DNA of 64,000 bases, from NCBI RefSeq assembly GCF_026929975.1, contig NZ_JANHOK010000003.1:186001-250000 (forward strand), written 5' to 3'. Below are positions 16,926-63,825 of the stretch, piece after piece (the first letter of the stretch is position 1; the number at the start of each line of letters is the position of its first letter). The DNA comes from Bartonella sp. F02. GTDB taxonomy: Bacteria; Pseudomonadota; Alphaproteobacteria; Rhizobiales; Rhizobiaceae. The notes below the pieces were generated by a model. The model was given only the letters and a program-made list of their open reading frames with translations, did not search any database and was not told the origin of the DNA. A program made the position numbers and the translations under genes.

Positions 16926-17765
16926 TTAATCTTTCAAAACAAGTAAGTTAGCTAAAGCTACAAATTCTGGAATGGAAAGTGTTTCAGCTCGACGTGTTCC
17001 GTCAATTTCCGCTTTTTCTAAAAGTTTTTCTCCTCCAATAGATTTAAGGCTTTGACGAAGCATTTTTCGTCTTTGTCCAAAAGCAGCTTGTGTTACAAGG
17101 CTTAATTTTTGTGCAGAACAAACAAGAGGTTGTGGGCGTGGAATAATATGAACAACAGAAGATGTTACTTTAGGTGCTGGTGTAAAAGCCTGTGGTGGAA
17201 CATCAAATGCAATCTTTGCTAGAGTACGCCATCCAGATAAGACACTGAGACGTCCGTAATGAGGAGATTGAGGAATTGCAGTAATACGCTTAGCTACTTC
17301 ACGTTGAAACATTAGAGTCATGGATTCATAAAAAGGAGGCCATGGTTGCGTCAAAAGCCAGTTTAATAGGAGCTGTGTCCCGATGTTATATGGAAGATTT
17401 GCAATAATACGTGGCTTTTCTGAATTGGTTTCAAAAAGCTTTGAACAATCTTGTTTTAATGCATCATTAAAAATAAGATTTAATCTTTGAGGATAATGTT
17501 TTTTTATGTCTAATAATGCAGGAAGACAACGTTCGTCACGTTCGATTGCTGTGACTATAGCACCTTTGGCAAGTAAAGCGCGGGTTAATCCTCCAGGGCC
17601 AGGTCCAATTTCAATAACTGGTTTTTCTTCTATATTTCCAGCTTGATGAGCAATTTTAGAGGTTAAATTAAGATCGAGCAGAAAATTTTGACCTAAAGAT
17701 TTATGAGCTTTCAGTTTATATGTATCAATGATTTCACGGAGAGGTGGTAAATTATCTATTGGCAT
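16926..17765 (-). CDS. rsmA: 16S rRNA (adenine1518/1519-N6)-dimethyltransferase
   Basis: Dimethylates two adjacent adenines in the 3' terminal helix of 16S rRNA (also called KsgA). The 279-residue protein shows SLGQNFLLD, the SAM-binding motif [11 protein letters not shown], and the catalytic motif NLPYNIGT. The ATG overlaps the end of pdxA by 10 bases, so the two are translationally linked. Last gene of the lptF-to-rsmA minus-strand run, the same arrangement as E. coli surA-pdxA-rsmA. Confidence 0.96.
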
Positions 17766-18769
17766 GCTTGTTGATTGTTTTTTGCAAGTTGTTCTGCAAG
17801 TTTGAGAGCAGAAATGAAACTTTCTGGAGAGGCTATCCCTTTGTTGGCAATATCAAAAGCGGTCCCATGATCTGGAGACGTTCTTATAAAAGGAAGCCCT
17901 AATGTAACATTGACAGTGGTATCGAAATCTAATGTCTTAACAGGAATAAGGGCTTGGTCGTGATACATACAAAGAGCTACATCATACATTTTTCTCGCGC
18001 GATCATGAAACATTGTATCAGCAGGTAAAGGACCTACAATATTTAATCCTTTTTGTTTAAGATATTGTATGGAGGGAACAATAATATCAATATCTTCTTT
18101 TCCAATTCCTCCATTTTCTCCAGCGTGAGGATTAAGACCTGCAACTGCTAAACGTGGTGATGTTATGGCAAATTGTGCTTTTAAACTATTTTCAGTAATT
18201 AATGCAGTTTGGATGATTAAATTGCGGGTGAGGTGTGAAGAAACCTCACTGAGTGGAATATGAACTGTAATAGGTATTGTTTTTAATTGCGATCCGTATA
18301 ACATCATAACAGGATGATATTGTTTATTAGAAGTTTTATGAGCTAGATATGCAAGGAATTCAGTATGTCCTGGAAATTTAAATCCAGCATCATAAAGGTT
18401 TTTTTTTGCAATAGGACAAGTGATGAGTGCACATGCATGACCGCTTTGTATCAATTGAACGCTTTGTTCTATCGCTTCAATTATTCCAGCAGCATTATTG
18501 GGTGAAGGTAATCCTACCTGGTGATTTTGTTTGTTTTTTAATGGTAAAATAGGGAGAGCTGTTTGGAAGTTGTCGACAAGATTATTGATACGCACAGATT
18601 CTATATTAATAGTCAATTTTAAAAAGTGTGCTCGTGAACGAATCATTTCAGGATCCGCTAAAAGAACAAAAGGAGGAATATGACGTATATGACGCATATT
18701 CCACGCTTTTATAGCTATTTCAGGTCCAATACCGGCTGGATCACCACTACTAACAACTAATGGGAGCAT
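17756..18769 (-). CDS. pdxA: 4-hydroxythreonine-4-phosphate dehydrogenase
   Basis: NAD-dependent enzyme of the DXP-dependent pyridoxal phosphate pathway. The 337-residue protein has the start region [12 protein letters not shown], the metal-binding His in FPGHTEFLA, a second conserved His in GLNPHAGE and the third in MYHDQALIP. Its ATG shares one base with the surA stop (TAATG). A complete active site suggests that this organism makes its own vitamin B6 by the PdxA/PdxJ route. Confidence 0.96.
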
Positions 18770-61674: not shown

Positions 61675-62163
61675 TCACTTGAGTGATGCAAGAGTTAGTT
61701 GCAAAGCATTTTCAACAGTTGCATGACGAATAGAATGACGATTCATTTTATCGAACCGCATTTCTTTATGTACAGTTTCATGATTTTTACGAGCAATTGC
61801 AAAATGCACGAGTCCAATTGGTTTTTCTGAACACGCTCCTCCTGGTCCAGCAATTCCTGTTACTGCGATTGAGATAGCTGCAAGTGAGTATTTTAATCCA
61901 CCTTCAGCCATTGCAATGGCTACTTCTTTTGAGACTGCCCCATGTGTTTTTATAAGTTCAGCGGATACACCAACAAGACGTGTTTTGGATTCGTTTGAAT
62001 AGACAACAAACCCGCAATCTAAGATATCTGATGATCCTGCAATGTTCGTAAGGCTTGCTGCAATAAGTCCTCCGGTACAGGATTCGACCGTCGTTAGTAA
62101 CAGGCCTTTTTGACGACAAGCTGTAAGAACTGCCTCTGCTTGTTTTTCACAAATATGTGTCAT
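61675..62163 (-). CDS. pncC: nicotinamide-nucleotide amidase (CinA C-terminal family)
   Basis: Stand-alone CinA C-terminal domain of 162 residues; the family deamidates NMN to nicotinic acid mononucleotide in NAD recycling. The hallmark TVESCTGGLIAA, VVYSNESKTRLVGV and VTGIAGPGG blocks are present. Its ATG overlaps the ispDF stop by 4 bases, so the two are coupled; the same order occurs in many Rhizobiales. Convergent with the COQ10-like gene. Confidence 0.9.
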   Translation of the reverse strand: MTHICEKQAEAVLTACRQKGLLLTTVESCTGGLIAASLTNIAGSSDILDCGFVVYSNESKTRLVGVSAELIKTHGAVSKEVAIAMAEGGLKYSLAAISIAVTGIAGPGGACSEKPIGLVHFAIARKNHETVHKEMRFDKMNRHSIRHATVENALQLTLASLK

Positions 62164-63353
62164 TTTGGAACTTCTCCTGGATAGACAACAGTAGCAGTCG
62201 CGAGAGCAGCAATTCCTTCGCCACGACCAATAAATCCTAGTTTTTCATTCGTGGTTGCTTTGATAGAAATGCGATCAATAGAGATGGTGAGTATATTCAT
62301 AAGATTTGTTACCATCATATGACGATAAGGACCAATTTTAGGCTCTTCAACAATCAATGTAATATCAATGTTTGCAATACGGCCATCTGCTTGTTTAATA
62401 ATTTTAAGAGCGTGGCGTAGAAAAATATGCGATGGAGCATTTTTCCATTGAGGATCAGAAGGAGGAAAATGAGTCCCAATATCTCCGGCACTTTGTGTAG
62501 CGAGAAGAGCGTCCGTTAATGCATGAAGTGCAACATCAGCATCTGAATGTCCTTTTAATTTCTTTTTAAAAGGGATTTTTATGCCACAGAGTGTGATATA
62601 ATCTCCTTCTTCAAAAGAATGAACGTCATAACCATTACCGGTGCGAATATCAGGAAACATTTGTACTCTTTTCTGAAGATGTAGATATGCAGTGTCAAAA
62701 TCTTCTGGCCACGTAATTTTTATATTATCAGGATTTCCATGAATAGCACGCATGGGAATGCCAAACCATTCTGCGATTGCAGAATCGTCTGTAAATTCAT
62801 GTTTGCATGATTGTATTGCTTGTTCGTGAGCAGCTAAGATTCGATCGAATGGAAAACATTGTGGAGTTTGTGCATTATAAAGATCAGCGCGTGGAACTGT
62901 TTCTGAAATATACAGTGTATCGTTGACACGTTTAAGAGTATCAGAAATGGGTAAAACAGGAAGAACACCTTCACGCTTATTGACAGTAATATGGATTTTT
63001 TCAAGAAGTTTATTATCAACGAAGGGGCGTGCACCATCGTGGATATGAACATATTGTGGTTGAATATTTTTGAGTGCACGTAATCCACATAGGGTAGATA
63101 TTTGACGTGTAGCACCTCCTTCAACAATGATAATGTGCTTTTTAAAATCAGCTATAGCATTTTCGCATATTTGGCGATCTTCTGGATGGATAACCAAAAC
63201 GATAGTTGTGATCGCTGTATTTTGCAAAAAGCAGTGTACAGTATGATAAATAACCGGTTTTTTCCCTAAAAGCAGATATTGTTTTGGATTGTTGGGAGGT
63301 GATCCTGCTCTTTTTCCACGCCCAGCGGCTAATATTACAGCTGCAATAGAAAT
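62160..63353 (-). CDS. ispDF: bifunctional IspD/IspF, apparent ATT start
   Basis: Two steps of the MEP isoprenoid pathway in one 397-residue protein: IspD (CTP transfer; LAAGRGKRAG near residue 8, PKQY) and IspF (cyclisation; GYDVHSF and GHSDADVALHALTDA). The frame runs open upstream of a TTG at 63227 for 42 more residues that include the essential IspD nucleotide-binding motif, so that TTG cannot be the start. No ATG, GTG, TTG or CTG occurs between the in-frame stop and this motif. The ATT at 63353, where an ATG is expected (ATT-SIAAVILAAG), lies 6 bases behind AGGAGA. Rare AUU initiation, a recent mutation or a sequence error are the options. Confidence 0.85.
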   Translation of the reverse strand: MSIAAVILAAGRGKRAGSPPNNPKQYLLLGKKPVIYHTVHCFLQNTAITTIVLVIHPEDRQICENAIADFKKHIIIVEGGATRQISTLCGLRALKNIQPQYVHIHDGARPFVDNKLLEKIHITVNKREGVLPVLPISDTLKRVNDTLYISETVPRADLYNAQTPQCFPFDRILAAHEQAIQSCKHEFTDDSAIAEWFGIPMRAIHGNPDNIKITWPEDFDTAYLHLQKRVQMFPDIRTGNGYDVHSFEEGDYITLCGIKIPFKKKLKGHSDADVALHALTDALLATQSAGDIGTHFPPSDPQWKNAPSHIFLRHALKIIKQADGRIANIDITLIVEEPKIGPYRHMMVTNLMNILTISIDRISIKATTNEKLGFIGRGEGIAALATATVVYPGEVPK

Positions 63354-63359
63354 GCTTAG

Positions 63360-63365
63360 TCTCCT
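63360..63365 (-). promoter_or_regulatory. ispDF: Shine-Dalgarno that decides the ispDF start
   Basis: AGGAGA on the minus strand at 63360-63365, with 6 bases to the ATT codon at 63351-63353. It is the best Shine-Dalgarno in the region and supports initiation at the ATT. Confidence 0.65.
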
Positions 63366-63366
63366 T

Positions 63367-63825
63367 TTAATGTTCTTTCAACGGATTATTATTTGTTATT
63401 ATGTCGTCTACTTTCAGCTGATGCTGAAAAGATGAGTTTTGCAGATTAGTAATAGGTATCATTGATAATATATTGAAAAAAGAATTTAATGTGTTTTTGA
63501 GTACCATATTTAAATTATAAAAATGAACTAACAAGCCATTAAAAATTGTATTGTCAAAACATTCTACCATAGAAAAATTACCGTCAGTTTTTTTACAATA
63601 TCAGTAACTGAAATTTCTGTTGCGGATTTTGCTAATTTTACATCACCATTGCGTCTACGTACTGTTTTCATAAAATCAGCTTCAATTATAAGTTGAAAAA
63701 TTTTAAATAAAAAAGTTCTAATATAACATGTACTTTGGCAATATCAGGAATACAACTTAGAGTTTTTTGACGTGTTGTACTGTACATACGCATTCGAAGT
63801 GCGTAACTTGTTTCGTTAATCACAT
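63367..63825 (-). pseudogene. rirA: decayed Rrf2-family regulator (rirA-like)
   Basis: Three frames together spell an Rrf2 protein close to rhizobial RirA, the iron-responsive repressor with a [4Fe-4S] cluster. After ATG (63825) codon 2 is TGA where relatives have Arg (then LTKQ); about 4 bases are lost before YALRMRMY; then IPDIAKVH; one base is lost in a T run before LFKIFQLIIEADFMKTVRRR; one in an A run before DGNFSMVECFDN; the frame then runs to the stop. Of the three cluster cysteines, the first (ECF) is kept, the others read Gly and Tyr. A Shine-Dalgarno (AGGAAGTGAG) and promoter remain. It ends 13 bases before ispDF. Confidence 0.88.

Follow-up and report, generated by a model that had tools for sequence, protein, structure and literature searches.

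Evidence for an AUU start codon of ispDF conserved in Bartonella and found in related genera

The ispDF locus

We analysed a stretch of 64,000 nucleotides from Bartonella sp. F02, called the window below. By protein comparison the closest named relatives of its genome belong to Bartonella, with identities of up to 81%. Its minus strand carries ispDF (62160..63353; 397 codons and the stop), which encodes a bifunctional MEP cytidylyltransferase/MEcPP synthase and was identified with NF006899, PF01128 and PF02542. Read from the ATT at 63353-63351, the frame gives a full-length IspDF that scores 493 bits against NF006899 (cut-off 417) and holds both domains in one chain, PF01128 at residues 3-226 and PF02542 at residues 236-389. 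Comparison with seven relatives (dN/dS 0.12-0.16, dS 0.74-1.15) indicates that the gene is under purifying selection: the protein is kept and silent sites are heavily changed.

Isoprenoid products include the lipid carrier of the cell wall and quinones. IspH is present in the window's genome and HMG-CoA reductase was not found there, which leaves the MEP route as the one way to isoprenoids that was seen. An initial reading of the window from its letters (the sequence-only reading) had called an AUU start notable for this enzyme and had advised a search for a second ispD gene. The genome gave a single ispDF match and no second ispD gene; the remark on the start stands: the gene is single-copy, and no second route to isoprenoids was seen.

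The start region, in minus-strand orientation, reads TGA AAG AAC ATT AAA AGG AGA CTA AGC ATT TCT ATT GCA GCT GTA ATA TTA GCC GCT GGG. The presumed start codon is the ATT at 63351..63353 (minus strand). A Shine-Dalgarno sequence, AGGAGA, occupies 63360..63365 on the same strand and is separated from the ATT by a 6-base spacer. An in-frame TGA stands 9 codons upstream of the ATT. The last open frame in a remnant of the upstream gene rirA ends at a TAA (63367..63369, minus strand) that lies 13 bases ahead of the ATT.

In the window, no ATG, GTG or TTG is found in frame ahead of the IspD motif. Counting from the ATT, the earliest is the TTG that forms codon 43, which already lies beyond the nucleotide-binding loop LAAGRGKRAG; a CTG at codon 27, located by eye, is also beyond the loop. 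Canonical codons are thus unable to serve as the start, and a codon of the AUU class stands at the expected place. The sequence-only reading had described the site in the same terms, with the start at this ATT, AGGAGA 6 bases ahead of it and the motif lying upstream of every ATG, GTG, TTG and CTG; the window agrees on each point. To judge from the TTG at codon 43, a gene finder limited to ATG, GTG and TTG would begin IspDF after the nucleotide-binding loop. Predicted RNA structure over the start was unremarkable in the two ispDF leaders folded (z 0.48 and -0.12), and a phage search was empty.

Control genes and Shine-Dalgarno strength

For comparison we took 46 conserved open frames from the window and dropped four of them (two shadows and two long frames with partial homology), which left 42. 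The first ATG, GTG or TTG lies within 0-29 codons of the open-frame start in 41 of the 42; in ispDF it comes 50 codons in. The largest of these distances among the 41, 29 codons, belongs to the frame at 16929-17852, which overlaps the preceding gene at its end. Since ispDF is the sole such case among the 42 conserved frames, its late canonical start goes beyond chance.

Shine-Dalgarno strength was scored with one hand-chosen start for each control gene. With an anti-Shine-Dalgarno tail that was assumed, not taken from the 16S of this genome, the ispDF sequence has a duplex energy of -9.3 kcal/mol; the control median is -4.9, and two of the 41 control genes have a stronger one. By this measure the Shine-Dalgarno of ispDF in the window is strong, and it is properly spaced. 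Over 57 genomes of the genus the mean is -8.3 kcal/mol (range -12.8 to -5.1).

The plus strand of the window also holds two long open frames, 27952-30732 and 31143-34526 (927 and 1128 codons), with partial, low-identity matches in relatives. At a guess, they may encode fast-evolving or repetitive surface proteins.

Start codon conservation in Bartonella

We searched 71 genomes of the genus and found ispDF in all but one, G062, whose completeness is 85%. Of the 70 genes, 61 have ATT as codon 1 and the other nine have ATA. The 57 closer genomes all read ATT TCT; a more distant set of 13, at 61-63% identity, has ATA in nine and ATT in four. The alignment with other Bartonella starts that the sequence-only reading had suggested as a check thus supports its placement of the start, with ATT or ATA at this codon in 70/70, and the non-AUG codon is kept across species. 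In one genome (G027:C1:433285-434474) the ispDF match is split into pieces of 233 and 171 residues, each in its own open frame, which looks like a frameshift between the domains.

The same alignment bears on the view that translation begins upstream, or reaches the frame by a frameshift, and that the ATT merely encodes an isoleucine. ATT, ATA and ATC are exactly the isoleucine codons, and interchange among the three would be expected of a conserved internal isoleucine. Stray in-frame ATG, GTG or TTG codons do occur upstream of codon 1 in 11/70 genomes. They vary by species in kind and place, and in five genomes (L054, L086, L092, L102, L103) they fall on the Shine-Dalgarno spacer; the other 59 lack such a codon at any position at least six codons ahead of the AAG motif. 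A canonical upstream start common to the genus is therefore absent. In addition, codon 6 of locus L071 is GTG.

The in-frame stops leave such an upstream start little room. In all 70 genomes a stop stands 2 to 19 codons before codon 1, and in four (L055, L075, L099, L119) a single sense codon separates it from the ATT. The spacer between the Shine-Dalgarno and the ATT differs in length by single bases between close species (L079 against L081, L082 and L087), which argues that the bases upstream of the ATT are not a translated frame. The position of the Shine-Dalgarno also fits initiation at the ATT. We consider an upstream or frameshifted start very improbable, the stops near the ATT being the main reason for rejecting it.

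Codon usage at this position adds a little. Among 19 invariant isoleucine columns in 30 full-length sequences of the genus, column 1 is the only one with a single codon (30 ATT). Columns 3, 7 and 35 come close, at 29/30 each, so that the count for column 1 is weak by itself and serves as support, not as a decisive argument. In Bartonella and the genus g51 (see below) the third base drifts and is never G; about five such changes were counted by eye, too few to carry weight alone.

Further in-frame ATT, ATC or ATA codons lie upstream of codon 1 in 36/70 genomes; in the window this codon precedes the Shine-Dalgarno. Among the 13 distant genomes, a count by eye gave 12 in which an ATT or ATC immediately precedes codon 1. 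The exact start in those 12 is therefore uncertain by one or two codons, and its class is the same either way.

The upstream gene rirA

The sequence-only reading had placed a pseudogene 13 bases before the ATT. It is real, and proves to be a remnant of rirA, the gene of an iron-responsive regulator of the Rrf2 family, whose last open frame ends with the TAA at 63369-63367. The remnant (63406..63814, minus strand; tblastn, limits set by hand and approximate) consists of three separate pieces. They were found by searching the window with RirA of locus L002, itself recognised by NF008886 (254.7 bits, cut-off 193), and are 55-65% identical to it, ending 52-347 bases before the ATT. A Pfam search of the last open piece found nothing.

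In all 30 full Bartonella loci (L050-L079), rirA homology precedes ispDF on the same strand. It forms one long match in 29 of them (L051-L079), with its end 15-74 bases upstream of the ATT; the window's own is the broken one. Because a single long match is present in the other 29 of the 30 loci checked, we regard the decay of rirA as a separate loss.

The nearby pseudogene had suggested to the sequence-only reading that the whole 5' region might be eroding, and an ATG could likewise have been lost from this genome or misread in sequencing. The genus comparison refutes both ideas. The ATT or ATA occupies the same codon in 70/70 genomes, the Shine-Dalgarno is kept along with it, ispDF is full-length with the low dN/dS given above, and the 29 loci with a long rirA match have the ATT nonetheless. 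We leave erosion or sequencing error hardly any probability.

ispDF starts in related genera

The family search covered 151 genomes, two of them Bartonella, and gave a match in 148. Leaving out four fragmentary matches (G113, G125, G126, G147), we read 142 loci of the family, 12 of which have a frame that extends past the end of the retrieved sequence. A canonical start is impossible in six of the 142, which belong to four genera besides Bartonella: L121 and L148 (genus g7), L122 and L127 (g51), L142 (g96) and L149 (g6). Codon 1 in g51 is ATA in four genomes, ATT in one and ATC in one (n=6). It is ATT in 7/7 genomes of g96, in 3/4 of g7 (ATG in the fourth) and in the one genome of g6. Pooled over these genera, 17/18 genomes read have ATT, ATA or ATC and 1/18 has ATG. 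No canonical start lies upstream in 5/6 genomes of g51, 4/7 of g96 and 2/4 of g7; some of the others have a GTG or TTG there.

The genus g17 gave a match in 35 genomes, of which 32 were read after exclusion of G225, G231 and G244, whose matches are broken or partial. In all 32 the aligned codon is ATT, and it stands one codon farther away from the motif. Two of them have no in-frame canonical start upstream and two more have distant ones only; the majority of the remainder carry an ATG, GTG or TTG there, as would be expected if the ATT coded for an internal isoleucine. On the alignment, g17 probably shares the AUU start, which is not certain.

The start of ispDF in g73 is ATG. In g27 (L126, L132) the leader reads GAGGCTTT ATT ATT TCA ATG. 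Its Shine-Dalgarno lies 13 bases from the ATG and 7 from the second ATT and is better spaced for the latter, so the true start in g27 may be ATT despite the ATG. Most other genera of the family that were read have an ATG some codons upstream of the aligned position. The use of ATG in g73, in one g7 genome and possibly in g27 implies that some lineages can do without the weak start.

A midpoint-rooted ispDF tree of 60 rows requires five changes of the label AUH (AUU, AUA or AUC), at least four of them forced by well-supported branches. The AUH start may be ancestral with losses, or may have been gained repeatedly; the tree fits both.

The related genera also bear on a possible tie between the weak start and the rirA-ispDF pair, either as a means of keeping IspDF low relative to RirA or through translational coupling to rirA. 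The pairing is widespread: it is seen in 30/30 Bartonella loci (29 long matches and the remnant), and rirA also lies just before ispDF in the loci read from g6, g7, g27 and g73. However, no rirA was found within 1.5 kb upstream of ispDF in g51, g96 and g17, which have ATT, ATA or ATC; rirA accompanies an ATG in g27, g73 and one genome of g7; and the window's genome keeps its ATT although its rirA is broken. Since AUH starts occur without rirA and ATG occurs with it, the start codon is not a feature of the pair, and we judge the tie improbable.

Comparison with known AUU-class starts

To our knowledge, firmly conserved AUU starts are few. The sequence-only reading named infC and pcnB as the main cases; both are apt, and the list needs widening, because Borrelia pncA and staphylococcal cvfC1 have also been published.

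One likeness is to infC of E. coli and other bacteria, where an AUU-class start is kept by selection. There it serves autocontrol of IF3 (PMC5472188). Unlike ispDF, infC encodes IF3 itself and so forms an autogenous loop; IspDF is a metabolic enzyme. We know of no role of IspDF in initiation. In E. coli pcnB, whose AUU start was reportedly described by Binns and Masters in 2002, the codon limits the synthesis of an enzyme, as proposed here. The two differ in that pcnB is reported to be nonessential, whereas ispDF is a single-copy pathway gene whose codon spans several genera.

In Staphylococcus aureus, cvfC1 (AUU) and ccpN (AUA) resemble ispDF in combining a conserved start with an extended Shine-Dalgarno (PMC13009471). 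They belong to Firmicutes, code for a small protein and a regulator and not for a biosynthetic enzyme, and have had their output measured, whereas ispDF is known from sequence. The start of Streptomyces sigR is likewise non-canonical, conserved in the genus, of a codon class rejected by IF3 and accompanied by a strong ribosome-binding site; it differs in being GTC, in encoding a stress sigma factor and in that repression by IF3 was shown by experiment (PMC5472188). Borrelia burgdorferi pncA is, like ispDF, a gene of a metabolic enzyme with a needed N-terminal region upstream of the annotated start, and it begins with AUU; it is a spirochaete plasmid gene, and its case is backed by genetics and a crystal structure (PMC13398362).

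By its sequence traits ispDF would join the loose class formed by infC, pcnB, cvfC1, ccpN and sigR. Our search of the literature on Bartonella, Brucella and alphaproteobacterial AUU/ATT or non-AUG starts of ispD found no report; an arXiv survey of non-AUG starts could list ispDF. Retention of AUU, AUA or AUC in a metabolic gene, throughout a genus and into other genera, would be a strong natural case for selection on a weak start codon.

Proposed mechanism

Initiation at an AUU-class codon of ispDF is well supported by the comparisons above. The alignments give directly the position of this codon, the absence of a usable canonical start, the conservation of AUU, AUA or AUC, the strong Shine-Dalgarno and the signature of purifying selection. 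Translation in the window would begin at the AUU at 63353-63351, presumably with fMet. Its distribution suggests that the non-AUG start is old and has been retained by selection.

Only two bases of AUU, AUA and AUC pair with the anticodon of fMet-tRNA, and IF3 disfavours weak pairs at the third. The AUU of ispDF would mispair with the initiator tRNA at the third base, and IF3 would then discriminate against it, as at infC. An in vitro study gives an idea of the effect: with AUU, the CAU anticodon and fMet, the full-length share fell to 31.1% at 1.5 uM IF3 (PMC10158994). Slow initiation at the AUU would result in low, possibly IF3-responsive, synthesis of IspDF. The strong Shine-Dalgarno would prolong the stay of the 30S subunit at the site, giving the weak codon time to work. 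The sequence-only reading, which had assigned the start to the weak and IF3-sensitive class, is likely to be right on these points, low output and IF3 dependence being deduced from the codon.

Because the AUH codon, the strong Shine-Dalgarno and the long conservation match the known cases, we read the ispDF start as a selected brake that is probably sensitive to IF3. In full, our preferred reading is that the AUU is an old, selected and weak start, discriminated against by IF3, which limits IspDF synthesis and is partly offset by the strong Shine-Dalgarno. We hold this to be probable. Any physiological use of the brake would be a further step.

A related view is that the AUU is the start and is constitutively weak, so that IspDF is kept low and IF3 never regulates it. 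The two views overlap and are not exclusive, and everything that supports the AUU as the start fits both. Drift of the third base among U, A and C is what one would expect if only the avoidance of G matters. S. aureus offers examples in either direction: in poor medium its conserved AUU and AUA starts gave about 10% of AUG output in reporters, and cvfC1 (AUU) showed no response to media, yet ccpN (AUA) was responsive to medium (PMC13009471). Conservation of the infC start in Bartonella points the other way, as described next, and we consider a purely constitutive brake rather unlikely.

All 71 genomes of the genus have infC, and its start is ATT in 31/31 Bartonella loci read (L207, i.e. G000:C1, and L251-L280). 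An IF3 loop therefore probably exists in the genus, which is no direct test for ispDF. We tentatively suggest, as an idea that may well prove wrong, that ispDF and infC form one IF3-controlled set in these alphaproteobacteria, which would tie the entry of carbon into isoprenoids to the state of initiation by way of the AUU-class start codon that both share, and would have been kept or regained in five, probably six, genera. With ispDF, the question of an IF3 regulon beyond infC would become directly testable.

As a separate observation, in each of three genomes (G042, G050, G052) infC (IF3_N) matches twice, at places 1.8-13.8 kb apart, which may reflect local duplication or an assembly repeat.
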